Assembly (NCBI GenBank): GCA_905160935.1
Contig: CAJHZI010000802.1
Span: 69,501-133,500, forward strand
Reading direction: 5' to 3'
Source of the DNA: Enchytraeus crypticus
Taxonomy: Eukaryota > Annelida > Clitellata > Enchytraeida > Enchytraeidae
Length of the DNA stretch: 64,000 bases
Shown: in pieces, positions 11,241-62,400 of the stretch
How positions within the stretch are numbered: position 1 is the stretch's first letter
Layout: each line of letters opens with the position of its first letter
Position numbers and translations under genes: made by a program
The notes under the pieces: generated by a model
What the model was told of the DNA's origin: nothing
Seen by the model: only the letters and a program-made list of their open reading frames with translations
Database searches by the model: none

Positions 11241-12687
11241 GGCTGTTCATGGCAATTATTGTCGGTATCGTGCTTGGCATACTGTTCGGAGCCGCAATGC
11301 TCATCATGGTCTTCCTCATAAGAGTCAGGTAGGTCAGGGTCTTCTTCATTAGAGTCAGGTAGGTCTAGGTCTTCCTCTCTACACTCAGGTAGGTCAGGGT
11401 CTTCCTCTCTAGACTCAGGCAGGTCAGGGTCTTCCTCTCTAGATTCAGGCAGGTCAGGGTCTTCCTCTCTATACTCAGGTACGTCTAGGTCTTCCTCTCT
11501 AGACTCAGGTCTAGACTCAGATAGGTCAAGACAGGCTGCAGTCTCTCCAACTGCTCGGTGTTTAATTCTTGATCTGCATTTATTTGTCCCCTGCTGTTAA
11601 TAATTATAACTATACGGCTCTAATAGTAATTTCGTACTTAATCATTCTTATTTGTATTTTCATTTCATGATGTTTTCCCCTTATATTACCTTTAATTTGT
11701 TTAAAAGTATAAAATAACTACAACTGATCCCTTGTTTAATGTAGTTTGTTATTGTTTTCTCTGGTATTACTCGACTATATGAAACTATCTAGTGGCAGTT
11801 CATGTCAGCTTGCACTCTAAAGAGAGGTCAGAGTTTTAGGCGAGGGATTGGTTCTTCTCTCTTGTTCTCTCTATTCGTGTTTTAACATTGTAATGTTTGA
11901 AGACAGATGAGGGCAAGCTTTACACTTGACGAAGTCCGTAATGTCATCAAAAAACAAAGAAACACACGCAAAATATTGAGTTAATATTTTATTAAATATT
12001 AACTTAAATATTTGATGTCATTGATTCAGGCACAGGCGGATGAGTGTTAACAAGTCACGTGCTCTACTACACACTGGTTGTTCTTCAAAATCTCGTGACC
12101 TAGCAACATGTCGACCCTCTGACTACGACCCTACAGGTTCAATCCTGGACGAGGCTTGTTCAAGAGTTAGACGAGGTCACAGCTCTGGGTTTAGCATGCC
12201 CAAACAATGCCCTATCCATGAAGCTTCAAGCCCGACTCTGCCGACCCACCAATGCCCACGTGGTCACGGGTTCTTTAATTACAAAGCCGGGTTTTGCTGT
12301 TCCCAAGATTCAACATATTCAGCAGAATCTGGTTGTCATTTGGGGTTTCCCTGCCACACTGCAGGGCCATTTAGTCCATTAGGACCGTTCAATCATCATT
12401 CCAGTGTCCTCCCTTCCCTGCATGTCAACCCGGACTGTGAACATTTCAACATTTCTCAATCGTTTGGAGATCATCTCACTGAATGTCCTTCCACTCGAGG
12501 TTGTCTCACTGAAAGCACAGCTTCAGAGAGAAATTATGATGAAAGAAAGGAAATGATAACATCAGCAAAAGATGTGGTAGTGTCACAAGGCGGAGACTGT
12601 AGTGATGAAGATATGACGTCAACACACGTTTTAGGGACGTCACCAAAGAATGATATGACATTAGTACATCAACAGAGACCGTCGTAG
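11241..12687 (+). CDS. Single-pass membrane protein with Cys/Pro-rich tail, 3' exons (unit A)
   Basis: Two exons join in phase. The first (11241-11328, acceptor tatttttcag, donor AG|gtaggt) encodes a hydrophobic helix, LFMAIIVGIVLGILFGAA and on, ending in basic LIRVR. The second (12030-12687, acceptor ttgattcag) continues RHRRMSVNKSRALLHTG to a TAG. Phase 2 out of exon one matches one base plus codons in exon two. The tail of about 220 residues is rich in Cys, Ser, His and Pro (CPIHEASSP, HLGFPCHTAGPFSPLG). Basic residues after the helix predict that it is cytoplasmic. Unit B keeps the same exons and frame. Earlier exons were not found; translation could start at the ATG in the helix exon (11249). 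I recognise no family. Confidence 0.7.
11309..11520 (+). repeat. 30-bp splice-donor array after the TM exon (unit A)
   Basis: Exact 30-bp period. Each unit repeats the exon end (gtcttcctc...agagtcag) plus the donor. Donor positions read gtaggt at 11329, 11359 and 11389, gcaggt at 11419 and 11449, gtacgt at 11479 and gtctag at 11509. Reading past the first donor gives AGG TAG, an immediate stop after LIRVR. Confidence 0.9.
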
Positions 12688-13535
12688 AATTCCGAAATAC
12701 AGCTAGAAGTAATGACGTCACCGCAACAAATCTCTGAGACATTTCAGAGAAAGGTGAATTCATAGCATTGACTCTCCGATCCTTCAGCAGCTCATACTCA
12801 CAGTTCGACAACGTCACCACATAAACTAATGACGTTTTTCTGAGCTGCTGCTCTTCAACGAATCACTGCAGAGGTTGTTCTAACAAACCAGGCAGACGTT
12901 CTAAGGCATTTGCTACTGCTTGCCTGTTCATTTTTATTAATAAATTAATCATTTCACGCAATGCAGTTATAAAAATTTCACACAATACAGCAATTCATTT
13001 GAATTGAAAAAGGACACAAAGGTCCGAAGAATCAAACATGCGCCCTAATTAAAGAGTAAAATAATTTAGCAATTTAGCAACTTTACAGAATAGCATTTAC
13101 AACATATCAAAGATCGCATTATTTGTATATTCTAAAACACATCATCTCAGGTAGTGAATGTAAGAGAAGCACACGAGATGATGACGTCAGCGAATGTTGT
13201 GTGTATGACGTGCTACACAGATTAGAGTAGTGAGGTAGCGAATGACGTGCGGATTAGCAACCTCTCACCTTCTTTCATAACTTCTATAAATCCAACGTGG
13301 TCGAAAAGCTAGACAAGAGTCGAAATTTGCTTGGGCTCAAATGGGCAAAATTCAACACAAAAATATAAATTTTTAACTTTGAGAGTTTATTAAATGTAAT
13401 ATTTGCTTGCGAAACAATATGGCGCCTCGTTTGCATCATTGTGAAAGTAATGCGGATATTTAGCAACTGCTGCATGAAGTTTATTACAATTATTTTACTA
13501 ACTGCACTTTTATTAATTAGCTATACAATTTTGAG
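12688..13535. other. 3' flank of the membrane-protein gene
   Basis: Conserved with 31407-32345 of unit B. Several TGACGTCA and gatgacgtca words occur (12712, 13178 region). No reading frame is shared by both copies after the stop. Confidence 0.5.
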
Positions 13536-13539
13536 CCGT

Positions 13540-13760
13540 TGTTATATAATAATACCATGACCACTAGAGTGCGATTGTCGTCAGTGACAACGTTTACTCC
13601 TTTAGATACAAAATTTCGTAAAGCAAAGTTTAACGTCTGTTTCATTAACACAAGGGATGCTGTCCGAGACATGGCTGAGAGTAGAGCCGATGTCCTCCTG
13701 CTTCTTAGGCAAGACTGCTATCCATTCGGCCATCCAACCCTTACATCAAATCATAAATCA
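13540..13760 (-). repeat. tRNA-like SINE plus LINE-tail remnant
   Basis: Minus strand reads ggatggccgaatggatagca, a tRNA-like A-box region, with gtctgtttcatt/gtttaacgtc words typical of other SINE tails here. The stretch actagagtgcgattgtcg resembles the L2-like LINE tail. Absent from unit B, where a different insertion sits at 32390. Confidence 0.5.
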
Positions 13761-14279
13761 AATCCAAGTCTAAGAACAATCAATATGAAAGTGTTCAAAT
13801 AAAGTTTTAACGTCCAAAATCCAGAAAACCAATCCAAAGAGGAAAAATCGGGTGATGGTGTTAATGTTGGTTACTGGCATTTTGGTGTCTGATGTATGGC
13901 TGTATGGGATCTATTGTAAACATTTCTAGACTAGCCTAGCTAGGCTCTTAACGGTTTAACACATGTTGAGTGTAAATATCATTCGCGATGATATTTAATA
14001 CTTGCTTTGATTGTTTTCTGAACAAGTTAGTGATTTATCTATTTTACCAGTCCTAAGCATTCCTAGATTTTACTATCTGATAAACTCACCCTGAAATTGA
14101 TCCCCTGATCCCATAACGCAATAGTAATAAGTCTCTGCGAGGTTATCCAGCCCTATATGCACTGGGCTGTTTGGACGTTTGAGTGACTCGTTTAGTTTGT
14201 TGAATGTAATGGGTGAATTTCTACTTTAAAACCATCATTCAAGTTCAGACTAAGTAAGAATAATACTAATACTAATACT

Positions 14280-14580
14280 AATAATTATAATAATCTGAGT
14301 CAATTTCTAGAGCGCTGTCATGGCCGGTGTCCGGTTTCGAGACCGCTTTACAAGTTCCTGACAGGTTATTATTAATCCTTTCCATGGTTAATCATATTTT
14401 TGCTAGTGATAGCACCATTCTGCAGCAAGCTCCGGTACAAGATTAACATTCCATGGGCCCAAGGAGATATCCATCACTTCTTGACTGACCTGGACTTTGA
14501 ACCCAGGCCATTTATAACCGAGGCGAACACTCTAACCGTTACGCCACATCCCCTCCCCAGAGAAACTCCCGATAATTGAC
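14280..14580 (-). repeat. tRNA-derived SINE (family SINE-C)
   Basis: Minus strand begins ggggatgtggcgtaacggtt-agagtgttcgcctcgg, a good tRNA-like A box, and has a B box in gggttcaaagtcc. The body ends with ctggacaccggccatgac words and an ATT microsatellite. An internally deleted copy is at 32920-33115. Confidence 0.8.
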
Positions 14581-14639
14581 GGCGCTTTATTCCAAAAGCA
14601 ACGCTCAAAGAGCTAAGGTGTTAAACTGAGTTGAGTTTA

Positions 14640-14735
14640 AAGTGTTAGAATTAATGACATGGACCTGACGACTGGCAGTTCACTGAGAGATGGAGAGAGA
14701 GAGAGAGAGAGAGAGCAAGAGAGAGAGACAGAGAA
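14640..14735 (+). mobile_element. RTE LINE 3' end with (GA)n tail
   Basis: Matches the RTE 3' terminus (atggacctg...ggcagttcactgagaga) followed by a GA microsatellite. See 56840 for the best copy. Only the last tens of bases are kept. Confidence 0.7.
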
Positions 14736-15240
14736 ACATGCGAGGAACAGAGTAATTTTTCGACAATTTGATAATCAAAGTTAATAGTCAAATAATATAA
14801 AAGTCAATAATATACCCATATAAAATAAAAAATATTTATGTAAAGGGCTACCGTCCGCTTCCTCGTACAAGGATGATTTTATGAACATAATAATATAATA
14901 ATATAAGTCAGTAATCGAAATTATGTTACATTTTTAATCTCTTTATATTGGTGATTATATTTAAATCGTTTATTTAATTGTTTGCGTATTGAAGTGTGAG
15001 TGAGTGTTATCTTTAATTGCAATACTATTTAATATTATAGGTTAGTTATATCTACACAACCAGAGGTGTTTTGTTTAATGGTTCAACATTGTGAGTGTTA
15101 TATTTAACACCACTAGAGACTACCTAAAGAAACGTCCAACACTGTACTATTTAATTTGAGTTTATTAATGCGAATTATAGTTAACACAACTAGAGGTTAC
15201 CTGAAGAAACGTGCACTACCGACACCTAAGCCCGACTGTC

Positions 15241-15365
15241 ACTGGTGAAACTTCACTGTCCACTCCACAAACATGACTAAGACTCGTGAAACTTCACTGT
15301 CCGCTCCCCAAACATGACTGAGACTCGTGAAACTTCACTGTCCACTCCCCAAACATGACTGAGAC
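15241..15365. repeat. 41-bp tandem repeat, 3 copies
   Basis: Three units containing gtgaaacttcactgtccrct-ccccaaacatgactgaga. No equivalent was seen in unit B. Confidence 0.9.
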
Positions 15366-15819
15366 TCCCGTATATTAACTCTCTCAGCCTAACACTGACC
15401 TCCACGGGTCACTGGTCACACGTGCATAGACACTAACTAAGCCACTGACCAGGAGGAGTGTTCAACCGAAAGCAGAACACTACAATTATGCTTTCTCGTC
15501 GTGCATTGATCGAATGATTTTATCAAACTTAGGGTTCTTTGCACCGAAAGAAAACAAAAACTTAAAAATTAAAAATATTATATTATTAGACCTACCAATT
15601 AATTAGTTCTAATAACCGACAACTTCTACAGCGGTATCATGGGCGGTAACCGGTCTTCGAGACTGCTTTACAGGTACCATTGAAAGACGCATTAACTACT
15701 CCTCACGTTTATCTTAGAAAAGATATGAATTACATGTCAAATGTAAAATACAAAAAATTACCAGTCACGTGTATAAAAGAAATGACATGCTTCTCTATGG
15801 CAGACACGCAGCATTCCTA

Positions 15820-15847
15820 TCGCTATCTCTCTTTCTCTCTCTCTCTT

Positions 15848-15886
<39 letters not shown>

Positions 15887-15925
15887 GTGCCCTGCCAAAA
15901 CTCGTATGTCCACGGTATATAACAG
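15820..15925 (-). mobile_element. RTE LINE 3' end with (CT)n tail
   Basis: A CT microsatellite (antisense GA tail) followed by cttagtgccctgcc and gtccacggtatataac, the reverse complement of the RTE 3' end. The unit B copy is at 33780. Confidence 0.75.
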
Positions 15926-16334
15926 AAAATATTTATATTTTTATAATATATTTCAGTCTCATACTCCTGCCGCTACATTGTATTAATACCCCGGAGGCTG
16001 AATTTAAAACAGCATTTTGGTTTCAACCAGATTTACGCTAGAGCGCGTTTGCGTCATTTTCTGCTAACAAACAAAAGCTACAAGAGAGTCAATCCTAGAT
16101 TTACAGAAGTCAAGTCGAGAGAGCATTGAGGTGATGATGTACACATTTATATGTAGTTAGGTACACATTGGTCCGGTTTTTAGGCACACGACAAGATTTA
16201 TTGCGGGGAGAAGTATGATGTTTGATCAGACAACGAACACGTCGATCAGCCAGTCGAGCTGTGGAGGAATCAACTCAGACCAGGTGTGACTGTAGTTAAT
16301 TGAGTTATGAACCAAATAGCCACTACAGGGTAGT
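15926..16334. other. Non-coding, conserved with unit B
   Basis: Well conserved with 33870-34280, including ccggaggctgaatttaaaac and cacgtcgatca. No splice-consistent frame was found. Confidence 0.5.
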
Positions 16335-16355
16335 GGAGATATATATATATATACA

Positions 16356-16428
<73 letters not shown>

Positions 16429-16451
16429 CATTATATATATGTATATATACA

Positions 16452-16500
<49 letters not shown>
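16335..16500. repeat. (TA)n microsatellite hosting a LINE insertion
   Basis: Long TA tracts broken by cagtatata words. The homologous tract in unit B (34280-34470) is uninterrupted by the LINE. Confidence 0.95.
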
Positions 16501-16504
<4 letters not shown>

Positions 16505-16507
<3 letters not shown>

Positions 16508-18530
16508 TTATATTTATCAATGCTAAGAAAGAGTACTACTCTTCTTCGTTCATTAAGGCTGTTAATGTCAAGAGAGTATGGAAAACTGTCAAAGATCTGT
16601 TACATAGATATATTTCTCCTTCTCTTTCTTCTACTCCTGTTGAGTCACTGCCTGAACAATTTTTCAGTTACTTTACAGATAAGATAAATCTATCACTCCA
16701 GCGCCTAATTCTACTCCTCATACTCCAGTAGAGACTCATTCCAAGGATTATCTTTCTAATTTTACTCCAGTTACTATTGAAGAGATTACTAAATTAGTTT
16801 TAGACTCTCCAGCTAAACATTGTGACTTAGATCCTATCCCAACCTCTCTTTTAAAGAAGTGTATTCACATACTTGCTCCAGTATTAACATTGATTGTTAA
16901 CCTCTCTCTCTCTCTCTACTGGCAAATTTTCTCGGGCTTTTAAGCGTGCAGTTATTACTCCATTGCTTAAAAAGCCACAATGGATAAGGAATCATTGTCA
17001 AATTACAGGCCTATATCTAATCTGTCATACATATCTAAACTCACTGAAAGAATTGTTCTTCAGAGGCTTTCTACTCATCTTACAATGATCTATTTAATAA
17101 GCATCAAGCTGCTTATACTAAGCATCGTTCAACTGAAACAGTGCTTCTATCTGTGTACAATTCTATTGTTAATGCCATGTGCACACAACGCTTAACTGAA
17201 TTATGTATGCTTGATCTTTCGGTCGCTTTTGATACCATTGATCACAATATTCTTCTGGAACGTCTTTCTTCCTGGTTGTGGAATTGTTCTTGATTGGTTC
17301 TCCTCCTATCTAACGGATCGTTCTTTTAGGGTGAAAGTGATGGAGAACATCTCTTCGCCTTCCCACTTAAGTATGGTGTGCCTCAAGGCTCCGTTCTTGG
17401 TCCTATCCTTTTCAACCTCTATACAGCACCCTTAAGCTCACTGATCTCTTCTCATTCTATTGATCATGAACTATATGCTGATGACACTCAACTGTACACT
17501 TGTTTCACCCCTAACTCCTACTCTGATGCTGAAACCCTCCTGCAACAAAGTTTTCAGTCTATATCCTCTTGGATGTCTGCTAATTTTTTGGCACTTAATC
17601 CATCTAAGACTGAATTCTTATTGGTTGGGACACCTCAACAGCTTTTGAAGCTGAATGGGAAAACGCTTTCGTTATCTTCAGGTATTTCAATATCACCTGT
17701 TTCTTCTGTGAGAAATCTCGGTGTTATCCTTGATAAACACCTAACCTTCCATGAACACATAACTAAAACTTCACAAGCACGTTTCTTTCATATCCGAGAT
17801 CTTCGTCAAATACGTCCATATTTGTCACGTGAAACAGCTGCTACAATTGGTGCTGCTCTTGTACAATCGAAATTGGACTACTGCAATTCCCTGTTTTTAA
17901 ATCTCCCTGGCTGTGAGATAAATCGATTGCAGTTTGTTCAGAATTCTCTTGCGCGAGCAATTTTTTGTAGTTCCAAGTACTCATATGTTACGCCCATTTT
18001 AAAGTCTTTGCACTGGCTAAAGATTAAAGAGCGTATCATTTACAACACAGCTTCGTTAACCTATAAGTCCATCACCATCCCTGGACAAACTCGTATGTCT
18101 CACTTGCTTAAAGTGATGCAGCCTGCTGTTACTCGGTTTTCTAAATTACTTATTCGTGTTAGACCTAGCGTAACTTCGCGCTGTAAGCTATCTAATCGTT
18201 CTTTCCAGCATGCTGCACCGCAGATCTGGAATTCTCTTCCATCCAAACTTCGGTAATCTTCATATGAAGCACATCGGCCTTTGCATTCCTATGAGCAGTT
18301 CCATAGGCAGTTGAAGACCTATCTTTTCCATCTCTCTTTTCCATCCAGTGTCCATGAGCAGCGACCTGCGCCTAAACCTCCTTTTCTTTAATTCCCTTTA
18401 CTTTGGACTGATTATCTGGATTTTGGAACTTGCACCGCTTTTCGACCTTCTTTTGCTCGCCGGCTTGATTTTGTCTCTATAGTGCTCGATGCTGTCATTG
18501 ATGACTGTAGCACTCTAATTTTTGCTATTT
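16505..18530 (+). mobile_element. L2/CR1-like LINE, 5'-truncated, unit A only
   Basis: RT in order: PLLKKPQ and NYRPISNLSYISKLTERIV, LDLSVAFDTIDHN, VPQGSVLGPILFNLYTAPL, then the catalytic YADDTQLY (about 17480), then thumb motifs SWMSANFLALNPSKTE and LVQSKLDYCNSL. The endonuclease is absent and the 5' half has at least three frameshifts; the frame from 17378 to 18256 is open. The 3' UTR ends gtcattgatgactgtagcac-tctaatt before (TA)n. The clade assignment rests on motif style. Unit B has the empty site at about 34440. Confidence 0.88.
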
Positions 18531-18870
18531 ATATATATATATATATAATATATATATATATAAATTTGTAGATATAAATTTATGACCTTGTTGATCTGGA
18601 TATAGACAATTATTCATCTGGTTTTGACACACGCTGATCTGGCTTTAGACACATTGGGATTTAGTTGAACATCTGCTGGTGTCGTGTTGCAATCCCACAC
18701 AAATTCGATTAAGTAGCAGAGCTGGCATTGCTGTCTTATATTCAACTGTGACAGGAGAATTTAGAATAGCGTGATACCGCTGTCTAAACTAACATGGTAA
18801 AGCTGTCTAAACTAACATGGTAACGCTGTCTGAACTAGCTAGCAAAATAGCAGTCCTGGATGGAGCATTG

Positions 18871-19790
18871 ACAAGCGGTTCATTGAAAGAATCATTTCCA
18901 ACTATTGTGCATGCGCACAAGAACTGTTATAAGAATTTGTTTATATAAGAATACGATGTTATAGTACGACATGTTGACATCATCTATTCAATTGGATCCA
19001 AAGAATCCCCTGTGCAGTGCGGTATATAGCTAGACTTTATATTATGAGATTCGGGTTTCGATTCTGGCACTAGTCAATGTAATTTTTTAAGTTTTATTAA
19101 AATTAATTACTTAGGAATATATATTCATTTCTTTATTCGTCAAAAACAGACAGGATCACGATGCATCACATATAAATATATACACACACATACACACAAA
19201 AACATGGGATCATAAAACAATCAAAAATGAAATACTAGAAACTTAACTAGAATTCCTGCTAATACCAGCACAGCATTAGAAGCTTCGTAAATTAAATACA
19301 CGCTTCTACCATAAGACACTCTATTGTCTAGAACCATCGAACAATTTACAGGCAATCTAAAGCAATGACACAGTTTATCTAAATCCTTCAACAAATATCT
19401 AATTAAAAAATGCTTTAAAATTATATTTATACTGAATCTATTTAGGCTGCTTCTAAAGAAATTAAACATAAGTTTAACTCTAATTCGCTTAAAATCCAAC
19501 TTACCCAACCCTATCATAATTGGCTTAACAGATTCCCATTTATGATAGTTAAATAGCTTTCTATAAACACTGTTCCAGGTAACATTTAAATCATGAATTT
19601 GATCGTTTCTAAGTGAAATAATGGTTAGAACTAGAGTAAAGGGTAGGCGTTAGGGTTAGGGATTGTTTAAAATATTATAACTTAAATTATAATATCGTTA
19701 TCCTATCTAAACAAATTATTAAAACAATTCTTGTGCGCATGCGCAATACTTTGTAATGATTCCTTCCTCGAACCGCTTGTGGAGAATAGA
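18871..19790. mobile_element. MITE with about 70-bp terminal inverted repeats at the A/B junction
   Basis: Left end acaagcggttc...tgcatgcgcacaagaa and right end ttcttgtgcgcatgcgcaa...gaaccgcttgt are reverse complements over about 70 bp. The interior contains cgttagggttaggg and a tRNA-like B box (gggtttcgattctgg). The copy at 34680-35093 is only about 413 bp because it lacks the LINE fragment inserted here. Confidence 0.82.
19121..19625 (-). mobile_element. LINE 3' fragment inserted in the MITE
   Basis: About 500 bp absent from the unit C copy of the MITE (where aggaatatgattagaac is continuous). On the minus strand it has a degenerate frame (MIGLGKLDFKRIRVKLMFNF) that resembles LINE RT C-terminal ends, then gaataaagaaatg near the 3' terminus. 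Assignment is tentative. Confidence 0.5.
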
Positions 19791-20490
19791 TAAGTTCGGT
19801 AATTGAAAAAATATTTTATTGCATGTTAACACTGGTTTGTTTATGTGGACAGCTGATCCATATATTTACATGTAAATGTAATGGGTCTACAGGTAAAATA
19901 GCCTAATTATCTCCGAATATATAATTTATATGAGAGACCTATAATTATTAGATAGAAGAAACCGGGATCATGCAAGCCAATTAGGTAAAAGAATTAGCTT
20001 TTAAGGATAGGAGGATGGTAGCAGTTGGCTGGAGCCAGTGGCGAAGTCGGTAAGATACTCGATCGCGGATCAGTAGGTGCGGGTTCAAATCCTGGACTCG
20101 CCCGTCACTGACATTGCTTTCGAGTAAGGAAACTGACGTTAACCTTAGCTACCAGCTTTTCATTATTGCTGGGCCAGATGCGTTCACACTATATGTAATG
20201 ACATTCTGTAACAGTAAGCCCATGCTTATCGCTATAATGCACGCATATCGTTATAATGGGTGTCAGAATTAAACGCTAAGTGTTAAGTTATTCTTTAATT
20301 AATATCCGTATAATAGGTAATATAGTAAATAACATCTCTAAAGAAAGCTTGTATTAATAACTTTATGAGGAACTAGTACATTTCAATATCATTCTATGCA
20401 ATGTTTACGTTTTCTTGTCCACTGTTTACATTTGGTCTCCCGGATGTTCTATTTATACCTATTACCGAAAAGATCTATTGACCTCTAATC
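19791..20490. other. Insertion relative to unit C, contains a SINE
   Basis: In unit C the sequence runs from the MITE end straight to ctactatatg. Here about 700 bp intervenes, including SINE-A (20027-20160). The rest is AT-rich with no gene seen. Confidence 0.6.
20027..20160 (+). repeat. SINE-A, best-preserved copy
   Basis: Head gagccagtggcgaagtcggt holds an A box (TGGCGAAGTCGG). B box is GGTTCAAATCC, then cgcccgtcactgacattgc and the tail gaaactgacgttaacc. Bases between the boxes do not fold into a normal tRNA, so it is a SINE rather than a tRNA gene. Confidence 0.88.
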
Positions 20491-21184
20491 TGGCCTACCA
20501 TATGATGCACAAAGTCTATATAAATCAGCTACCAGCTTAAATTGCTGTTTATTGTAAATTAAATCCTTAGACATAGGTTGATTATTCAAATGAAAAAAAG
20601 CGAAAAGAATACGAGTTTCCTGATTTAAAGAAAAAAATAGCCTAATCTTAAAGAACAAATTTCAGAAAGAAAGAAAATTTAATTTAAAAGGAAATAAAGT
20701 TTTAGAAAAAAGTATATGTAGATATAAGCACTAAATTTAATTACTAGTCAATTAATAATTTAATAATAACTAATTATTATATCAACTTAATTAGTTAATG
20801 TAATTGTAAGATTTTCAGAACATTATTCCTCCCATACAAAAGTTGTATTTTTATTCTATCACAGAACCTCTATCTATCAACGGCATGAAGCCGCCCATTC
20901 AGAGATTAGTTCTTAGTTGTCCTTGAGTCTATTTCTATGCGGGTGTCGGTGGGAGGTGTTCCACCTCCTTGGAGGATGATTGACCCCTGACTAAAGTCTT
21001 TCTTGGGGTTAACTTTAACCCCTACTCTGTGCAAAATCGAATAGGGTAAAGGCATATCCATTTGACCGCCAACGACCCCACTTTAAAAATCTTAACAAAT
21101 CTAACCCTGTTTCTTTCTATCTTCAATTTTAATTATATTACTTAGTTCATACATTATTTTTCTGTATTACGTAGAAATTAGGAG

Positions 21185-21395
21185 CAGGGTTTAGTGTACT
21201 TGGTTTAGCTCTAGCATTGATAGACAATGTTAAGCAACGTCCGACTCGGTTAGCAATTGAATGGAGGACCACTTTGAAAAAATTTCTGGATGTTGGAAGG
21301 CTACACTTAATCTGCGCGTACCACTGTATCATGTATTACATTGTACAGTCAACGATTAATAATAGCCTTGTAAAGACGGAAATAACAAAAAAACT
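21185..21395 (+). repeat. 5S rRNA-headed SINE, unit B
   Basis: 5S-like core gttaagcaacgtccgactcg-gttagcaattgaatgg-aggaccacttt, then the shared body ending gtaaagacggaaataacaaa. Orthologous to 1020 and 36175. Confidence 0.8.
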
Positions 21396-23839: not shown

Positions 23840-23877
<38 letters not shown>

Positions 23878-23878: not shown

Positions 23879-23897
23879 CAGGGTGATTGACAGATTT

Positions 23898-29916: not shown

Positions 29917-31406
29917 GTCTGTTCATGGCAATTATTGTTGGTATCGTGCTTGGCATTCTGTTCGGAGCCGCAATGCTCATCATGGTCTTCCCCATAAGAC
30001 TCAGGTAGGTCAAGGTCTTCCTCGTAAGAGTCAGGTAAGTCAAGGTCTTCCTCTCTAGACTCAGGTAGGTCAAGGTCTTTCTCTGTAGATTCATGTAGGT
30101 CAAGGTCTTCCTCTCTAGACTCAGGTAGATCTAGGTTTTCCTCTCTAGGCTCTTGTAGGTGAAGGTCTTCCTCTTTAGACTCAGGTAGGTCAAGGTCTTC
30201 CTCTCTAGATCCATGTAGGTCAAGGTCTTCCTCTCTAGACTCAGGTAGATCTAGGTCTTCCTCTCTAGACTCTGGTACGTCAAGGTCTTCCTCTCTAGAC
30301 TAAGGTAAGTCAAGGTCTTCCTCAGTAGACCCAGGTAGATCGTTTTATTATTCAATCAACTTATGACAGGCTGCATTCTCTCCAAATATTCGCTGACTAT
30401 TTCTTGATCTGCTTGGAATTTTGTCACCCCGCCATTAAAAAATATAACAATAGGACACTAAATATTTAATCAACTTTATTTCATTATTACATTTCATGAA
30501 ACTTTCCCACTATTTATATTTAATTTTATTAAAATACTTAACTAACTAAAAGTGCTCCTTTATTCAACGTAGATTACTGCTATTTTCATTGGAAATGCTC
30601 GACTAGATGAATCTATTTAGTGGAACACTATGGCAGATTCCGCTCTAAAGATCGGTAAGAGTTCTAAGCGAGAAATTGGTTCTTTCTCTTGTCGTGTTAT
30701 ACCTATCACATTTTTGAAATGAGTTGAGAGCATAACAAACACTTGAAGATTTTACGTAACGCTCACTTTAAAATTTTCCGTGAATACATCTAAATAGATG
30801 GAAACACACGTTAAATATTCAGTAAATATTTAATTAAAAATTAATTTAAATATTTGATGTCATTGATTCAGGCACAGGCGGATGAGTGTTAACAAGTCAC
30901 GTGCTCTCCTACACACTGGCTGTTCTCCAAGATCTCGTGACCTAGCAACACTTCGACCCTCTGACTGCGACCCTACAGGTTCAAGCCTGGACGAGGCTTG
31001 TTCCAGAGTTAGGCGAGGTCACAGCCCAGGACTTAGCATGCCCAAACAATGCCCTATCCATGAAGCTTCAAGCCCATATCAGCCGAGCCACCAATGCCCA
31101 TGTGGTCACGATCTCTCTAATTACAAAGTGGGGTTTTGCTGTTCCCTAGATTCAACTTATTCAGTAGAATCAGGTTGCCATGTGGGGTTTCCCTGCCACA
31201 CTGCAGGGCCATTTAGTCCATTAGGAACGTGCAATCATCATTCCAGTGTCCTCTCTTCCCTGCATGTCAACCCGGACTGTGAACATTTCAACATTTCTCA
31301 ATCGTTTGGAGATCATCTCACTGAATGTCCTTCCACTCGAGGTTGTCTCACTGAATGCACTTCTTCAGAGAGAAATTGTGATGAAAGAAAGGAAATGATA
31401 ACGTAA
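29917..31406 (+). CDS. Single-pass membrane protein, 3' exons (unit B)
   Basis: Orthologous exons to unit A. The helix exon 29917-30004 has acceptor gtgtatcag and donor TCAG|gtaggt, encodes LFMAIIVGIVLGILFGAAML and on, and ends FPIRLR. Exon 30872-31406 begins RHRRMSVNKSRALLHTGCSP. Phases again fit (2 then 1). Over about 164 tail residues there are no indels against unit A despite many substitutions. The tail ends early here: ATGATAACG is followed by TAA where unit A has TCA, removing about 40 C-terminal residues. Conserved splice sites and frame support a real gene family. No known domain recognised and upstream exons not located. Confidence 0.7.
29985..30345 (+). repeat. 30-bp splice-donor array after the TM exon (unit B)
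   Basis: Twelve units in exact 30-bp register from 30005: gtaggt, gtaagt, gtaggt, gtaggt, gtagat, gtaggt, gtaggt, gtaggt, gtagat, gtacgt, gtaagt, gtagat. Most are preceded by cag or close variants, and each unit repeats the exon-end word ggtcttcctc. Unit A has about seven units. Confidence 0.92.
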
Positions 31407-49590: not shown

Positions 49591-52500
49591 GTAGGCACAG
49601 TTTTTCTCAAATTGATTGATTGATTTTTAAATTGTTTTATTGATTTAGTATTACTTATTTATTGATTTTTATCCACTAATCTGACTGAATGCTCTATTTC
49701 GCATTTTGTTTTGTTTAATTTGTTTAATTTTTGTAAGGATTTGTTCAAATGTTTATTTAACTAATAATTTAGATTAAATATTTACTTATTTATTTATTCA
49801 GTTATTTCAGACCACTGCACTTTACAAAAATAACGCGACAATAGACAATAAACTGAACATGTGACAATGGTTTGTGGCTTCCTGAGGAGCCCTAAGGTCA
49901 TCGAGCAGGACACCAAATATTACTATATTAATTTATTATTGTGATTTATTATATATTTGAGAGAATAAAAACCTAATAAAATTAAAAAACCTAGTCGTGT
50001 ACACTTTGTTGTATCAGGCCGATGGATAGCCGACCTGAATGTTTCATTTTTTCTCTAATCCCCTCCGTGTCGACCCCTGATAGGGATATAGGCCTAAGGC
50101 ACACTAAAAGGAAGTTTTTTAATTATTTATTTTATAGATATTTTATTTTATGAAGGACACAGAGAAGATGGAAGTTTAAACACTGAACGAGGAATAAGAA
50201 GAAAGAGGAAGGCTGTGTCACGCGATGATCAGCTGTGGACAGATGGCGTCGTACCCTATACACTCTCTGGTTTCTCTCTCTCTCTCTCTGTCTCTGTCTC
50301 TCTCTCTCCATCTCTCTCTCTCTCTCGCTGCTGTCTCTCTCTTTCTCTCTCTGTCTCTGTCTCTCTCTCTCCCCATCTCTCCCTCTGTCTCTCTCACTCT
50401 CTCTCTCTCCATGACATATTGTATTTTTGTAGGGTATTTCTATTATATTCCTATCTCTCTATCTCTCTCTTAGTGCACTGCCTACTGGCAGGTCCATGGT
50501 ATATAACGTCTCCACGCATCTCAATCTTCCGTTTCCTCTTCATGTCTACATGTTTCCTCTTCATGTCTTCATGTTTACGATTGGATCCTGAAATCATTTA
50601 TAACATTCCTTTTGATATACCATTAATCTTGGGGGATTCTGCTTATGACGAAGTGGGCCCCCTATGCTTCCTTAGCTTCGACTAACATTTACTGGGCAGC
50701 GGCGTCATTCCCCGAGAAAACAATCCTGTCTACCCTGTATTTCTATTTATATATTTCCATGTATTTAATTTTTTACCCTGTATTTATATTGTTTTTCTAT
50801 GTAGCTAATTTTATTCAAGCTCCTTATGTAAAGCAGTCTCAAAGAGGGGCTTAGAACGTGATAGTATTATGTACGTTTTCGTTGTTAATATTACTACACT
50901 AATAATAACAACATTATTAATAAGTACTTCCAATCAATTCCTCATTATGAATAATTGATATAATATATGATTGTCACAATCATGTTCAATAATGTATAGA
51001 ATATGGTTGATAAGCTGATATAGTACATAGCAATTTCATTATGGTGAAACACCATTTTTACAGAGATGAAATGTTTTATTATTCTTTGCAGATGTATTAA
51101 TTTTAGATGCTCGCGTTAAATGTTGGTCAAACATCTAATCAGAAATTTCAGTATTCATTATTTCTTTAAAGGTAAAGCAAAGGTTAATGTCAGTTTCCTC
51201 AATCGAAAGCGATGGCAGTGACGAGAGAGTACAGGATTTGAACCCCGCACCTACTGATCCGCGGTCGAGTATCTTACCGACTACGGCACTGGCTCCAGCC
51301 AGTGGCCGTTAAATACACTTGGACCTCATGACAGAGAGTGTAAAATCTAGAATATAGTACGTAAATGTGCTGTGATGGCCAGCACTGTAAATGCTGATCT
51401 ATGTCTCAAGATGAAGGTGTCTAAAGACGTACAGGAAGTGAAAGAAATTTCTTACGCCGTTAATACGGCAAGGACAAGTTACCAGACAGAAAACAAGCCA
51501 CTAGGCAGCTTCCACTAGGCAGCCACTAGGCAGATTATTGCTTTGAATGTCTCAATAGCGTAGGGGTAAAGTCATGAAGTTTTAAATGACAGATCCGGAA
51601 GTTTAATTGAACTCTCGCGGGTTCGAATCCCAGTCGCGCTGATCTGAGAATAAAATCTCGGACATTCACTGGACTGATTATACGGAAAATGGTCTAAATT
51701 GCCTAACGGTATAAACATGTGGTTGTAAAAGTGATAGATATCAACATAGTTGATCATTTCATTATAATGCGTGTTTACTTTTTTCTATTACTTCCTGTAT
51801 CCCAAGAATGGAGTACAGCACAACTGACGTAGTACATAGCAGCTGATGTAGTACAACGCAGCTGATGTAGTACAACGTAGTTGATGTAGTACAACACAGC
51901 TGATGTAGTACAGAACAGCTGATGTAGTACAACACAGCTGATGTAGTACAAGCAGCTGTGAGCTTCTGACGTTGACGCTAAATCCACATTATTAGTTAGT
52001 TAGTTTAGATTTGCCATAGATATAGAGCTATTGAATAGGCCTTTAGCTAAGAAATATGCAATAGGATTATTGCATAATCAAAAGAGGCCTTCGGTGATAG
52101 GAAAGAGCTTTTTACAAAAAATCAAAAGAAGATCACAAAAATCGAAAACTTTGCTACGATCACGCTATTATATGGCTAGGAAAATAGACTTTAAGGAGGG
52201 AAAGTGTTAGGAAACTGGAAGCGTTGGAAATGTGGATATGAAGAAGAATGGAACAGATTTTAGCTGGGCACAACAAGTTACAAACAAACATTTTCCAGAG
52301 AGTGTTGGTACAACTGAAAAAATGCATTAAGAAATTGGACACATTCTAAGGGACGGTGAGATAATATAATAAAGAATAGCAGTGAATGTAGAATGAATGA
52401 AAAGAGAAGCAGAGGCCGGTTGAGATTAGGAATGTTTAATGATTTTAAGATACACTTACACGTATATATGGATATGAAGAGGAAAACAGAAGACTGAAAA

Positions 52501-55500
52501 TAGTGGAGGTGTTATAAACCATATACTTGCTATTATGCAGTGCAATGAGAGAGAGAGAGAGAGAGATATAGAGAGAGCGAAAGAGAGAGAGAGAGAGCAT
52601 AGGCCATGGCTAAACTTGACTGGAGTGTTGGCGCTTGGCCATTAACGTAATCTGTGACGGTAGCTGGAGTGTGTCGGATCATCTTCATGCTAAATACACT
52701 ACTACGTACGGCGGAAGCCAATGGCGATGTCGGTTGAATATTCGACCGCGGATCAGTATGTGGAGAGTTCAAATCCTGGGCTCGCCCGTCACTGACATCA
52801 CTATTGAGTCAGGAAACTGACGTTAACCTTAGCTTTATCAGTTTTCTTTGCTTTACCTTTATACTGCATCTCATTGTCATTCCAGAAACGCATAAATAAC
52901 GATGCTGGATTATTTATTTTTTAATTTCAGCCAGTATTCGAGGTGACGCTCGTCTAAGAGCGCTTCTGGAAGAAAGCATGCAACACTTTATGAACGTTAC
53001 CTGTGTCAGATTCGTTGAGTACAATGACTCCACTGTGCACGAGAAAAATCTCCTGTCTAGTGGAAAATATGCTAAATTTATTAGAAACCACACGTGAGTA
53101 CTACACTGGTATAAATTGCTACTAAATAAACCTATTATTGAAGGTTAAAGTTGATATATATGTGTTTTTTGTGAGTGCTTGTGTGCCAGTGTGTGCCAGT
53201 GTGTGCCAGTGTGTGCCAGTATGTGCCAGTGTGTGTCAGTCTGTGCTAGCGTGTGTCAGTATGTGCCAGTGTGTGTCAGTGTGTGCCATTGTGTGCCAGT
53301 GTGTGCCAGTGTGTGCCACTGTGTGCCAGTGTGTACCAGTGTGTGCCAGTGTGTGCCAGTGTGTATCAGTGTGTGCCTGTGTGTGCCAGTGTGTGCCAGT
53401 GTGTGCCAGTGTGTGCCTGTGTGTGCCTGTGTGTGCCAGTGTGCACGTATGTTTATGAGTATTGCTGTGTGCGTGTTTGAGTGCTTGTTTGTGTGAGTGT
53501 TTGTGTTAATGTTTGTGTGACTGTTTGTGTGAACGTTTGTATCTGTGGTTGCTGTTGCTTTATACCTTAAATATAAAAACTGCGACACTATTTACCTTTT
53601 TTTAAATGAAATATACATGTAAATGTCTTTAGAAAAAAAGAATAATGTTTAACTACCTTTTACTAGTGCTTAATCACTTCGCATGAATCATTTGTTTGGA
53701 ATTGATTGATTTGGAATTTTTACAATAGTTTCAAACATCCCGTCCTTGACATTTCCTTATTGCGAGTGATCAATCTGGAACTTTGTGCCCTCGTTATCTT
53801 ATCTCTCTCTTAGTGCACTGCCTACAGGCATGTCCATGATATATAGCGCCTCCACTCTTCTCTGTCTTCCATTTTCCTCTTCATGGCCACATTCGACTGG
53901 ATCTTTGCGTCATCTTTAAATCTTTCCACTAACTTTCAGATGTGAGGCAAACGTTGGAGTATCAAGAACCAGAGGACCTGAGCACATCAGTATCGACAGC
54001 CAGTGCTCCCAGGTGAGAGTAAAGCAATTGAACAGTTTATGAGAATTTAACTCCGGTTTTCTACACTTGTTTTTCTTCGTATGAGATGTTTACGTGCAGT
54101 CGACAAGCTAATTCAATATTGTTATGAATTTTTTTACAATTCAAATAAAACAGGGATATGTCAAAAGAGAAAGCTGAACTTCACCCTGTCTCATTTATAT
54201 TAATATTTTTATTTTATATTTATTTAGATTAATATTTTATTCGTTTTTTAAAACAATCAATAAAGAATAAACAATTATTTTTATATTTAAGTTTTAATAT
54301 TTAATTAGCTTAGCGTATTTAAATAGCTCATCACCAGCACGGCAATGTCATGAAATCTAAAGGGCTTGATGCAGTTCCAGAATATCTAATGTATTTAGAG
54401 AATAAGATAGAAGAGGATAAGAGAACAATTCATTGAGCTGCACAGAGCGGTTTAAAATGGTAACATTAAAAGTGATAGGTGAATATTCATGAGCCAGGTC
54501 ACGTGCCTCTTTGTTTTTGAGAAAAATGATTATTAATTCACAACTTACTTCATGGGTATGGAGCGGTTTTAGAGAGATATTTATATTCATGAGCTAGGTC
54601 AATTGCCTGTGTATGTAGCAGAGAGAAATAATTATTCATGAGCTAGGTCTGTGCATGTTCAAGAGAGAAATCAATATTCATGAGGTAGGTCACGTTTCTC
54701 TGTATGTTTCAGAGAGAAATGATTATTCATGAGCTAGGACTGTGTATATTTCAGAGAGAAATGATTATTCATGAGCTATGTCTGTTTATGTTCCAGAGAG
54801 AAATGATTATTCATGAGCTACGTCACGTTCCAGTGTCTGTTCCAGAGAGAAATGATTATTCATGAGCTAGGTCTGTTTATGTTTCAGAGAGAAATGATTA
54901 TTCATGAGCTAGGTCACGTGCTAGGCCTATGGCACGAGCATGCGCGGTACGACAGAGACAATCACGTGATCATCATGTGGACAAACATCGCCGCAGCCTA
55001 TAGGCACAACTTTATAAAACAGCGCGATACCCGCCTAGTGGCTCCTTACGACCTGTCGTCCATGATGCACTACAATCTAAACGTATGAATCACTGTGAAA
55101 CGTAATACGTCTAAAATAGTAATCTCTCTGTTATGCAACTTTTACAATCTAAACGTTTGCTACACTTATCCTGGTGTTACATTTCGACTATATCTAGTAA
55201 GATTTTTAGTGATTACAAAAATTGTGAGGTATTATCTGCTACTATTATCTTAGAAGTTTAAAACAGTAAGTTCTAAAAATCTCCAAAATCTAAGCGCATG
55301 CTGCACTAGCTGTCGTACTAGCCTAATAACAACAATCAATAACAACAATTAGAGTGCTACAGTCATCAATGACAACATCGAGCACTATTGAGACAAAATC
55401 AAGCCGGCGAGCAAAAAAAGAAGGTCCAAAAACGGTGCAAATTCCAAAATCTAGAAATTCAGTCCAAAGTAAAGGGAGTTAAAGAAAAGGTGGTTTAGGC

Positions 55501-55559
55501 GCAGGTCGCTGCTCATGGACACTGGATGGAAAATTTTAAATTAAAGAAAAAAGGAAGAA

Positions 55560-55590
<31 letters not shown>

Positions 55591-56245
55591 CAGAAAGAGA
55601 GAAAAAGAGAGACAGACAAATATATAGATAGACAGACGGAAAGATATAGAGGCATTATAGGATACGTCTAAATGTCACTGGAGCTCTTGATGTTGTCGTA
55701 GACGTTTGCAGACAATGGAGAGAATTCACTGCGAGCGGTTGATGAGGATTTAGAGTTTTTGATTGGCTACAGAAGAGAGATGAGTTTCTACGACGCTCTC
55801 ACTCTCAACTCTCTCTATAACTGCTCTAGTAAGCTCTTAGTTTAGCCACAATTCTATTCTTAACTCTCTCTATAACTGCTCTAGTAAGCTCTTAGTTTAG
55901 CCACAGTTCTATTCCTAACTCTCTCTATAACTGCTCTAGTAAGCTCTTAGTTTAGCCACAATTCTATTCTTAACTCTCTCTAACTGCTCTAGTAAGCTCT
56001 TAGTTTAGCGACAGTTCTATTCTTAACTCTCTCTATAACTGCTCTAGTAAGCTCTTAGTTTAGCCACAGTTCTATTCTTAACTCTCTCTATAACTGCTCT
56101 AGTAAGCTCTTAGTTTAGCCACAGTTCTATTCTTAACTCTCTCTATAACTGCTCTAGTAAGCTCTTAGTTTAGCCACAGTTCTATTCCTAACTCTCTCTA
56201 TAAATGACCATTCAAGATCTGAAATTTTGAAGGTTCTAGTCATTG

Positions 56246-56282
<37 letters not shown>

Positions 56283-56326
56283 TCTCTCTCTCTCTCTCTA
56301 TTTCTCTCTTTCTCTCTCTCTCTCTA

Positions 56327-56377
<51 letters not shown>

Positions 56378-56562
56378 CTCTCTCTCTTTCTCTCTCTATC
56401 TCTCTCTATCTCTATCTCCATCCCTATCTATCTATCTCTCTCTCTCTCTCTTTCTCTCTCTATCTCTCTCCATCTCTATCTCCATCCCTATCTATCTATC
56501 TCTCTCTCGCTCTCTTTCTCTCTCTATCTCTCTCCATCTCTATCTCCATCCCTATCTATCTA

Positions 56563-56615
<53 letters not shown>

Positions 56616-59384
56616 TTTCTCTCTCTCAAATTCAGCGTTTCAACTTTCATTTTTGTATTGTCTCGACTTATCGAGAAAGCGCCATTGGGCAGCTAAAAGC
56701 AAAAGCTTGTAACGCTAATGTTAAAATCAGTTCAGAGAGGCACTTAAGAATAAATTATGCGTTAACTGGGCTTATTGCAAGAGACGACTAAGCAAGAACT
56801 GAGGAAGTTAAAGGTAAACCGTCACAAAAGCCATATTTTCTAATTATGTCTTACGTCCTTAAAAAGAGGTCATAGAAGGTAGAATGGAAGGAAAAAGAAG
56901 CAGGGGCGGGCGAGATTAGGTATGTTAGATGATTTAAAAACCCACTCCTATGTGGAAATGAAGTGGAAAGCGGAAGGCAGAGAAGAGTGGAGGCGTTGTA
57001 TACCATGGACCTGCCAGTAGGCAGTGCACTAAGAGAGAGAGAGAGTCTTACATCCAGGTTAGCAACAGTTTCATTGTGCTGGCAATTTGTTATTATTTCT
57101 ATCATGACAGGAAGATGTGACGAGGAGAGATTGAGATGTGAGAATGAAGGTTACCTGAACGAGCTTTGCCAGTGTGTGTGTCCCAAGCCACTTATAGGAA
57201 CCCTATGTGATTACATCAGTACTGATCCAGGTAGGTAGGTTGTAGTGTGTTTAACGTCAAGGTTCAGAAGCACAAGGCTTCTCTTCAAGACGACTCGAAC
57301 AAACTCGAGCTACCGTCCCAAAGATTAATTAACAGTAGGTTACTATTCATCCAGGTAAGCGGTTTATATCATATCTGGATTTGCAGTTGGATATTTAAGG
57401 TAGGTTGTAGCGTACATGTTTAACGTCCATATTCAGAAGCACAAGGCTTCTCTTCAAGACGACTCGAACACACTCGAGCTACCGTCACAAAGATTAATGT
57501 AATAGTAAGTCAACTCACAGTTATCCACGATTTTACAATTTGTTTATGGATTTATCAGCATTAAATTTAATTTAGTGAAAGACAGCATTAATTTTCTTTA
57601 TTTTGAATTTCTTTATTTCAATTCTTTAATTTCTACTTTATATTTTCGTTTTAAGCTCACCATGGTTCACATTTAAATTGTGCTCACTTATTGCATTTAC
57701 TTGTTTGTTTGCATTGATTGTGAACTATACAGGGTTGAATTGACCCTTCTTGGTGATCTAAATAAATAAATAAATAAATAAAATGGACCCCTGATGAATT
57801 AAAGACGTACTCGATTATCTACATGTAGATGAGGAGAAAAGCTGAGAGCTAGGGGAGTTTGTTAAATGTCATATAACTAGCTTTCGTTTAGGGCCTTACT
57901 TCTCAGCACATTTCTTTTGCAAATTGATCTGGGTGAATTGATCTGTAGTGATGTGTGCAGTGGGGACGTCCCTAACATCATCCCTGGATGAGGAAGCGGA
58001 CGTTAAACCTTTATTATTATTATCATTATTAGTATTATTATTATTAATTTATTTTTATTATTATCTGCTATTGAACTGTTGAGAGATATATTTTCTATTT
58101 AGTGGACTGTTTTCTGTTATGAAAACAACGTTTTTAAAACTTATTACTTTCATAAATTGTGTTTTAAATTATTTATGTATTTCACTGCTTCTTATCCTAC
58201 TTTGCACTGATTTTCTGAATTATGGAACTTGCACCGTTTTTGAACCTTCCTTTCGTTCGCCGACTTGATTTTGTCTCAATACTGCTCGATGTTGTCATTG
58301 ACGACTGTATCACTCTAATAGTTGTTATTATTATTACATCGTATTTTATTTACAGAATGCGGAGGAAAATTCAATCTTGAATATTGGCCCCCCAGAATTA
58401 TATCATCACCCCTCTACCCCAGACACTACCCCCCTGTGCTTGACTGCGCCTGGCTGATCAGTGTGGGTACATTTTCATGCTATGATAACTATGTGTATAT
58501 TACTAGTGTGTAATGCGTCCTAATGTAATACATACTAGTATGTAATACATACTTGTATTTAATACATACTAGTATGTAATACCTAATAATGTAATAGGCA
58601 ATATATAGTTTATAATATCTACATGTATTGATCCGCTGTCGAATATCTTACCGACATCGACACTGGCTCTAGCCAGCATATATGTTGATCCTCAGAAGCG
58701 GTAATATGTTAATATGGCTCATATTATTTTAATATAAGTATACAGAATTGTAACATTTTAGCTACTAATATCTGGTACTACTGATACTACTGGTGAAAGT
58801 ACTACTGGTACTACTGGTGAAAGTACTACTGGTACTTTCCTGTGGTGGTCGGCTAGATAGAGCACCTTGTGCCCTCTCTGATGTTATGTTATTCAATGAA
58901 TAATATGTTAGATTTTGATTTGAATGATTGATGAGATTTAAGTGTCTGATGCATTTATGTTCATTGATATAATGTTTGCATTATGTGTCTGTATGCTGTT
59001 ATTTCTTTCTTCATGTATTTTTACTATTTATCTTTTTACTATTTATATATTACTATTTGTAATTTTACTATTTACTATTTTTGATAATATTTACTCATAT
59101 GTGGAAATGAATAGGAAAGCGGAAGACAGAGAAGAGAGGACGCATTATATGCCGTGGACCTGCCAGTGGGCAGTGCACTAAGAGAGAGAGAATATTTTTA
59201 CTTTGGTTCTAACAACTATTTCAGAGTCCACTAAACACCATTATTTCACTGACTCTAGACGATCTTGACATTGAAGCAACAGATGTCAACAGCAATCAGT
59301 GCAAAGACTGGCTGGAGATCAGATACCATTACATCGGTATCGAACAGGGGCCTAGGTAAGTTAAGTATTCACTGTTTTCTCTCT

Positions 59385-59431
<47 letters not shown>

Positions 59432-59455
59432 ACCACACTGTCTCTATCTCTCTCT

Positions 59456-59498
<43 letters not shown>

Positions 59499-62400
59499 CT
59501 CTCTCCCCTTCTCTTCCTCTCTCCTCTATTTATCTCTGTGTTATCTTGGTTATTCAGTTCTTTCTAGTATAACTACATTAGCCGGCCGTTGCTAACATCG
59601 AACGAATATTTTCCGTATATATAGGCTGACTAATCACTACATTCGAGTATGGGAGAACGTCCCTGATATCTTCCTTTTAATTCGAAACGGACGTTAAATC
59701 TCTATTATAATAATAATGATAATTATTATTATTGTTATTATTATTATTATCTTTATTATTACTATTATTATTATTACTATTATTATTATTATTAATATTT
59801 TTATTATTTTATATTTTATTTTACTTTTTATAATTAATTCATTTTGTAGTTTCTAGATATATAATACGAGTGTCCCCTGTATAATATAAAAAGAGAATAG
59901 CAGTATATTACTCGCCACCACTGAATGCCGTAAAGTGTGGACACAGGAGAAGGCTTAATCTTTTCTCAATTGATTAGTTAATCGATTATGTGCTCCTAAT
60001 AGATAGTGAAAGGAGAATTTGAGCTGGAATGTGTACCTTGGGCCTGCCTAGTAGCTGAGAGAGAGAGCGAGAGCGAGAGAGAGGGGTGGGAGAGAGAGAG
60101 AGCGAGAGAAAGAGAGACAGAGAGCGAGAGAGAGAGAGGAGAATAATGTGAATGTTGTAAGATGTTCATGTTATTAGTATAATTTTTCTTTCATTGATTG
60201 ATTTACAGATTGATGGACCAAAGGGTTACGAATTGTAATTAAATCCGTAGTAATAGATTGAATGATAATTTTTGTCAATTTACAGTTTGTTATTCGATAC
60301 ACCCAACAGAATACTTGAAAAAATTAGTCAAGGCGGTAGTGTGTTTAACGTCAAGGTGAAAAAATTAGTCAAGGCGGTAGTGTGTTTAACGTCAAGGTTC
60401 AGAATCACGAGATTTCTCTTCAAGGCGACTTGACACACTCAAGCTGTCGTCACAAAAATTTCGTTTGTCATATTTATTCTCACTTTCAAAGTAGTTATTA
60501 TCACCATGAAATAACCCGTATTATCAGAATATCACAACCCATTGCAGATTCAAAATCAATCAAATATATCATTTTTTATATATAACGACTCAGCGAGCAG
60601 ATAAAACAGGTATTAACTTTCTTGCTTTCTTTGCTCGCTAACAGATTATGCGGGCAACTGAGAGATTTAAAGAAACTCGAATATAAATCTACAACAAACA
60701 GAATGATAGTCAGCTTTCGAGCCAACTCTCATAAGAGCGGCAGAGGTTTCAAAGCTACGGTCAAAGTTCTGCCGCAACAGAGTAAGCGGTACACTAGGAT
60801 ATAAGACAATACGGATTAGCTAATTATATAATAATTAATTAATTAATTAGTTAATTATTGTTAATAGTAATAATAATAATTATCATTATTACTCTGTCAT
60901 AAATTTATTTTTTATCGTGTTGTGTATGAGACTCTGAAGAATGGATCAACCGTAAACTACATGTGTCGTAAGAAACGACTAAGTAAGAACTAGGGAAGAC
61001 AACCAGGAAACCACATCAGAAGCCACTATCCCTGGGCTACAGTCAAGAGGGGATAGGGCTTAGCCTTTGTGTAGGGATTAAAGCTGGTAAAGCTAAGGTT
61101 ATCGTCAATTTCCTCACTCGAAATTTCGTCAGTGACGGGCGAGCCAAGGATTTGAACCCCGCACATACTGATCCGCGGACGAATATCTTACTGACATCGC
61201 CACTGGCTCCAGCCAGGTGATGATGGTAAACCTGGATAAATAACAACAATCTGCCGGTAAGGTGAACAAGATGTGATATGATATAAGAGTTCTATGTATC
61301 ATCATTGATGATCATTTCACTAAAATATATTCTTATCAGCCGTCTGTAGCCAACGTCATCTCTGAAATTAATTAATTGATTGATCGATTTAATTACTGAC
61401 TGGAGCCAGTGGCGATATCGGTAAGACACTCGACCGTGGATCAGTATGTGCGGGGTTCAAATCCTTGGCTCGCCCGTCACTGACATCGCTTTCCAGTGAG
61501 GAAACTGACGTTAACATTAGCTATACGAGCTTTTACTGACTGAAGGATGTTCGTATATCTGTGCTAGACTGCGCGTCAACATTAGCTGTATGAGCTTTTA
61601 CTGACTGAAAAGGATGTTCGTATGTCTGTGCTAGACTGCGCGTCAACATTAGCTATATGAGCTTTCACTGACTGAAGGATGTTCGTATATCTGTGCTAGA
61701 CTGCGCGCCAGGTCCCTGTCAGAACGGGGCGTTGTGCAGGGACGTGAGGAGAGCGGGGGGAGTGCAGTGTGAGTGTAGGGAGGGGTGGGTGGGGAGGTAC
61801 TGCGAGAGACAAATCTGTAAGTAAGCTACGCTAAGCTGGTAAGCTAAGGTTAACGTCAGTTTCCTCACTCGAAAGCGATGTCAGTGACGGGCGAGCACAG
61901 GATTTGAACCCGCATCAACTGATCCGCGGTCGAGTATCTTACCGACTTCGCCACTGGCTCCAGCCGGTGGCGAAGTAATTAGTTAAGTACTCAGCATTGT
62001 AAAGTACTTAGTACTGTAAGTACTTAGTATTGAAAGTACTTAGCATTTTAAGTACTCAGTATTGTAAGTAATTATTATTGTAGGTACTCAGTATTGTAGT
62101 ACTCAGCATTGTAAATATTCAGTATTTTAAGTACTCGGTACTGTAAGTACTCGGTATTGTAAGAACTTAGTATTGTAAGTAGTCAACATTGCAAGTTCTC
62201 AGTATTGTAAGTATTCAACATTGTAAGTACTCAGAATTTCATGTACTAAGTACTGTAAATACTAGTATTGTATGCGGTTGCATTGAGATGACTATATTGA
62301 AACTTAAACATTAGAACTTAAACATTTAAACTATCAAAGGATTCTACAGAAGTATTTAAAGTCAAGTTAATATATAATTTGTGCCAATTAGGAATGTGTC

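Follow-up and report, generated by a model that had tools for sequence, protein, structure and literature searches.

Tandem arrays anchored at exon edges in a membrane-protein gene and an astacin protease gene resemble the mirage minisatellites of amphioxus

The stretch analysed here, 64,000 nucleotides of contig CAJHZI010000802.1 (positions 69,501 to 133,500, forward strand; hereafter the window, numbered from its first nucleotide), is animal-like DNA with long introns and abundant tandem repeats, for which Tandem Repeats Finder (TRF) returned 106 rows. Two unrelated genes host tandem arrays whose repeat unit straddles an exon edge: gene A, coding for a membrane protein, and gene B, coding for an astacin protease, both on the plus strand, as are all exons and arrays located below. 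The original prediction had named four such arrays (30 bp twice, 42/49 bp and 55 bp) with the exon edge as outermost unit, and TRF together with direct reading recovered this layout in all four. However, the two 30-bp arrays share one origin, and a fifth array, B3, has the same layout; it lies within the coordinates of that prediction, yet is missing from its list.

Gene A belongs to a tandem segmental duplication of ~15 to 20 kb that occupies positions 1 to 39213, apparently as two complete copies and part of a third. In copy 1, a transmembrane (TM)-helix exon (LFMAIIVGIVLGILFGAAMLIMVFLIRVR, 11241 to 11328, called from reading frames) ends at the donor CAG/GTAGGT, the slash marking the splice boundary, and a cytoplasmic-tail exon follows at 12030 to 12687, its phase matching the first donor of the array. 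In copy 2, the TM-helix exon lies at 29917 to 30004 (reading frames and conservation between copies) and the tail exon at 30872 to 31406, joining in frame to the first donor of its own array. Between copies, dN and dS are 0.033 and 0.10 for the TM exons and 0.069 and 0.111 for the tail exons (175 codons), and the intron 3' of the arrays retains 365 identical bases out of 497 aligned; because the exons are conserved better than this intron, we took them as coding. A homologue search with the tail retained none of 96 candidates at E 0.001 and the tail matched no Pfam family, so that gene A rests on the conservation between its two copies; exons upstream of the TM helix were not found. The duplicated region also holds paired minus-strand open reading frames (ORFs), beta-propeller (NHL-like) in look, with a weak Pfam NHL match (E=0.19) and a DUF4082 match under its cut-off (E=0.0034).

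Array A1 (11304 to 11510; TRF and direct reading) consists of seven 30-bp units, the first being the exon edge itself, that is, the last 20 nt of the TM-helix exon plus the donor (GTCTTCCTCATAAGAGTCAG/GTAGGT), and units 2 to 7 being intronic. Array A2 (29985 to 30344, also by TRF and direct reading, with TRF limits of 29997 to 30338) repeats this layout in 12 units of 30 bp at the paralogous exon, where unit 1 again joins the last 20 coding bases to CAG/GTAGGT. We rejected these arrays as independent cases: since both lie within the tandem segmental duplication, they count as one origin. A1 and A2 differ in length, with 7 and 12 units respectively in the one sequence analysed. Inner units (A1 units 2 to 6, A2 units 2 to 11) differ at 4.8 and 4.7 positions per 30 within the arrays and at 5.06 between them (permutation P=0.22), a difference too small to show concerted evolution within each array. 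Because both copies carry an array at the same edge, with units barely more alike within arrays than between them, array A would most simply be older than the gene duplication. A1 is also open for 92 codons (11322 to 11597) in a frame other than that of the TM exon, giving a serine/arginine-rich repeat that is probably a chance effect of the 30-bp unit.

Gene B codes for an astacin-CUB-EGF-TSP1-MAM protease. When Pfam was run on eight pieces of it, five passed the cut-off (astacin with E=5e-39, CUB, EGF, TSP1 and MAM), the second astacin exon scored under it, and the N-terminal piece and the first EGF-like piece gave no match. The exons that flank the arrays, called from Pfam and reading frames, are the astacin exon CEANVGVSRTRGPEHISIDSQCSQ (53940 to 54012), 5' of array B1; the active-site exon REMIIHELGHVLGLWHEHAR, which contains HELGH and ends in HYNLN (54888 to 55082); the last astacin-domain exon, TFADNGENS...LNSLYNCS, with the donor GCTCTA/GTAAGC (55702 to 55828); and the EGF exon CAPGPCQNGALCRDVRRAGGVQCECREGWVGRYCERQI (61700 to 61816; Pfam EGF, E=5e-9). 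An EGF-like exon between the last two (57111 to 57230), called by eye and matching no Pfam family, follows on in frame (phase 1) from the first donor of array B2. Searching for homologues of the astacin piece gave three proteins from three candidates, all holding the active-site exon. In two of them (P0002 and P0003), protein comparison places the end of the likeness just 5' of the exon start predicted for B1, and the third begins within the exon and is silent on its start. Long CT microsatellites lie in gene B introns near exon edges (50273 to 50409, 56249 to 56627, 59378 to 59527 and 62527 to 62594), one of them beginning 46 bp past the end of array B2.

Three edges of gene B carry an array, each delimited by TRF and direct reading. 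B1 (54483 to 54919; 42/49-bp unit) is on the acceptor side, with older, diverged units upstream (TRF 54571 to 54915); its last unit, TTTCAG/AGAGAAATGATTATTCATGAGCTAGGT, is the acceptor plus the first 28 to 32 bases of the active-site exon. On the donor side, B2 (55803 to 56203; 55-bp unit) comprises seven full units and a truncated eighth, the first being the end of the LNSLYNCS exon followed by GCTCTA/GTAAGC. TRF gives 96% matches among its units, and B2 is young or recently homogenised, to judge from this uniformity. B3 (61509 to 61707; 65-bp unit) covers the EGF-exon acceptor, CTAG/ACTGCGCG being found in all three units and the last unit being the start of the exon. At its left end, B3 begins within the tail of a dispersed repeat that is present at about 61390 to 61515 and 61826 to 61975, with nine further tail matches; this tail, GTGAGGAAACTGACGTTAAC, has 11 matches at three or fewer mismatches vs none in shuffled sequence. 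The repeat resembles a tRNA-derived SINE, but ARAGORN detected no tRNA.

That each unit carries a usable-looking splice site, as had been claimed, holds for A2 (donor GT in 12 of 12 units), B2 (an identical donor word in 7 of 7 full units) and B3 (3 of 3 acceptors), coding units included; it fails for A1, where the donor GT is intact in 5 of 7 units, the coding one included and one of the five reading CAGGTCTAG, and for the truncated eighth unit of B2, which lacks the word. Of the splice sites checked for their reading, it is the exon-most in each array that yields the conserved protein in phase, with in-frame joins across A1, A2, B1 and B2. Reading on past the first donor meets a stop at once in A1 (after FLIRVR) and A2 (after PIRLR), and in B2 it gives NCSSKLLV and a stop. 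Upstream of the coding B1 acceptor are eight acceptor-like places, of which six were translated: five lead to stops, and the nearest would add 14 residues in frame. Given the phase of the coding acceptor, both upstream B3 acceptors lead to stops, so that all but one of the inner sites checked end in a stop codon. The exon-most site, which reading frames predict to be the one in use, is transcribed first for donors and last for acceptors, and hence the common rule would be that of the shortest exon, in keeping with exon definition.

Such a series of intact sites could also mean that inner sites are kept by selection as decoys that tune splicing, giving for instance a truncated, tail-less TM protein or a longer astacin exon, and the intact sites of A2, B2 and B3 as well as the in-frame B1 acceptor fit this idea. 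In array A, however, 13 of the 15 intronic units compared (A1 units 2 to 6, A2 units 2 to 11) retain the donor GT, a count within the range of other dinucleotides (8 to 15 of 15), so that the inner donors of this array show no special care. Moreover, B2 is near-uniform throughout, so its intact sites may mean youth only, and stops follow nearly all inner sites checked. We consider selected decoys improbable, and decoy selection, which the original prediction had offered as a cause, is not supported as a general one.

Another claim was that random repeats should rarely span exon borders in this way. Four of the 11 independent arrays with units of ~30 bp or more lie at exon edges, two on the donor side (A and B2) and two on the acceptor side (B1 and B3), and random-placement controls expect 0.2 to 1.0. 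For the Monte Carlo and both edge-shift tests, the 11 arrays were hand-picked from the 106 TRF rows, leaving out A2 as a paralogue and two AT-rich loci (27669 and ~63.4 kb); array limits were widened by eye for the Monte Carlo (B1 as 54483 to 54919, B3 to 61711), and TRF limits were used for the edge shifts, in which 24 splice edges (21 for gene B alone) were slid around the window. In the Monte Carlo, 5 of 60,000 random sets reached four for the window, and P was 0.007 for the three of five gene B arrays at edges. With the outermost unit only, none of 63,400 shifts of the window reached four or more (mean 0.19), and 35 of 13,800 reached three for gene B; with any overlap, P was 0.005 for the window (mean 0.68) and 0.14 for gene B alone. 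A further test took all merged TRF rows at successive period thresholds, dropping three, one or no paralogous copies (A2, 21625/21633, 36572). It gave 4 of 46 arrays at edges for periods of 10 or more (0.99 expected, P=0.017), 4 of 38 for 15 or more (P=0.010), 4 of 25 for 20 or more (P=0.003), 4 of 14 and 4 of 13 for 25 or more and 30 or more (both P=0.00075) and 3 of 9 for 40 or more (P=0.004). Exon edges were picked by hand from a candidate list, most of them lacking homologue support; the first astacin exon donor was entered as 50264 and the MAM exon end as 63813 (listed candidates 50269 and 63814), and minus-strand ORFs were handled as single exons.

Chance would explain the pattern if, in a genome rich in both minisatellites and introns, arrays sometimes came to lie across exon edges at random. 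The crowding of the window with arrays, the any-overlap result for gene B and the excess of four over the 0.99 expected at periods of 10 bp or more all favour this. The outer-unit shifts and the Monte Carlo speak against it, for the window as for gene B, as does the fact that like arrays have been published from several amphioxus genes. We regard chance as unlikely and the pattern as real and probably non-random: the excess over random placement held in the window in most controls, and not in the any-overlap control on gene B alone.

Tandem duplications of exon-intron boundaries have been named 'mirages' in amphioxus (PMC3087553, PMC3902484), and the original view of reiterated arrays as something more than duplication across splice sites has therefore been anticipated: the arrays of this window belong to this known, little-studied class. 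According to the excerpts available from these reports, mirages affect 5' and 3' boundaries of the globin genes BflGb6 and BflGb9, regular splicing is undisturbed as judged by reverse transcription-PCR, unit number varies between haplotypes and boundary units are exempt from homogenisation (PMC3087553); further cases concern PGBD5, Adh and TnC (PMC3902484), as well as Adh3, as cited in PMC3087553. As far as these excerpts go, all four independent arrays share with the amphioxus mirages a tandem unit that spans the boundary, and an authentic exon edge as terminal unit with the other units intronic, here by reading frames; donor and acceptor sides are both hit, many units carry AG or GT, and unit number changes, in the window between paralogous arrays. 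Compared with the same excerpts, the genes differ (a TM protein and an astacin-CUB-EGF-TSP1-MAM protease), units measure 30 to 65 bp vs 150 to 160 bp in the globins and 10 to 72 bp cited for Adh3, three edges are affected in one gene, and one array occurs in both copies of a segmental duplication. Human segmental duplications offer another parallel. In the extracts of a survey (PMC2812944), recently duplicated genes have internal tandem repeats at exon-intron boundaries, which like ours are minisatellites of ~30-bp units; the variable repeats of the human genes alter exons or give rise to novel introns, whereas here the frames predict that inner units stay intronic. Our arrays also resemble, in carrying splice signals, the tandem duplications of the Rogers model of intron gain (as cited in PMC3087553), for which the potato RdRp gene is given as a case in the part of PMC4974935 consulted, but they are reiterated and stand beside existing introns. 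We recognised no new intron between duplicated splice signals of the inner units, in a reading made without an ancestral gene structure for comparison. The matches listed in our literature search, as excerpted, comprised gene-by-gene amphioxus reports and the one human survey; a genome-wide count, whether for amphioxus or for another invertebrate, was not among them.

We consider it likely that the arrays are mirage minisatellites grown from duplications across exon edges, with the exon-most site kept. The process would start with a short tandem duplication spanning an exon-intron junction, which may be tolerated as nearly neutral: a duplicate that contains the whole exon and its exon-most splice site would still give the normal mRNA, probably via exon definition, and all remaining copies would therefore be intron. 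Unequal exchange or slippage could then let intronic units expand, contract and drift, whereas the outermost unit, because it is coding, would stay put under selection, so that the array could grow only into the intron.

Several points weigh against this reading. The site used in each array was deduced from the reading frames only, and B3 extends just 8 to 12 nt into its exon. The any-overlap shift on gene B was not significant (mean 1.35). The outer-unit rule was formulated after the arrays had been seen and, since in addition the exon edges were hand-called, the chance figures are indicative. Inner units were expected to resemble each other more closely within an array than across paralogous arrays, and this was not found. 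Finally, the neutral model alone leaves the excess of edge arrays unexplained, unless anchored arrays are longer-lived or form more frequently.

A junction-linked mutational process would favour tandem duplication at exon edges, whether by slippage or repair at AGGT-like words or through transcription or splicing; it is compatible with growth of mirages from edge duplications and would provide its missing first step. The edge excess in the window is in its favour, and AGGT stands at the breakpoint of B1 on the exon side and, in array A, near the breakpoint on the intron side. No AGGT was seen at the unit junctions of B2 and B3, however, the left end of B3 being in the dispersed-repeat tail; array ends lie 8 to 32 nt inside exons, at no single fixed place, and the same excess would be expected if anchored arrays persisted longer. 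We give such a process a low probability, and slippage seeded at AGGT, as originally suggested, is not supported as a general cause.

Elsewhere in the window, an ORF at 17330 to 18256 resembles a non-LTR retrotransposon reverse transcriptase. Rfam gave no match at gathering scores. A 41-bp duplication at 60316 to 60398 was rejected as an edge array and taken as part of a dispersed repeat and not as an exon, similar translated pieces being found near 57239 and 57404.

With four independent cases in two genes, the window suggests that an edge excess could be measured. This excess deserves to be followed up, and so does the finding that a duplicated gene has an anchored array in each of its two copies. 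Mirages are relevant to the choice that the spliceosome makes between identical sites, as B2 offers seven donors with the same word of which the frame demands the first, and to the origin of new splice sites and introns. A wider reading, tentative and less likely than not, applies if the source of the window is no cephalochordate and the excess proves genome-wide: edge-anchored minisatellites may then be a general animal repeat class rather than one peculiar to amphioxus. Exon edges would hold such arrays in place for good, since loss of the coding unit is not tolerated, and the arrays may last longer than ordinary minisatellites and be carried along when genes duplicate. Such a class would constitute a lasting source of duplicated splice sites from which new introns could arise.

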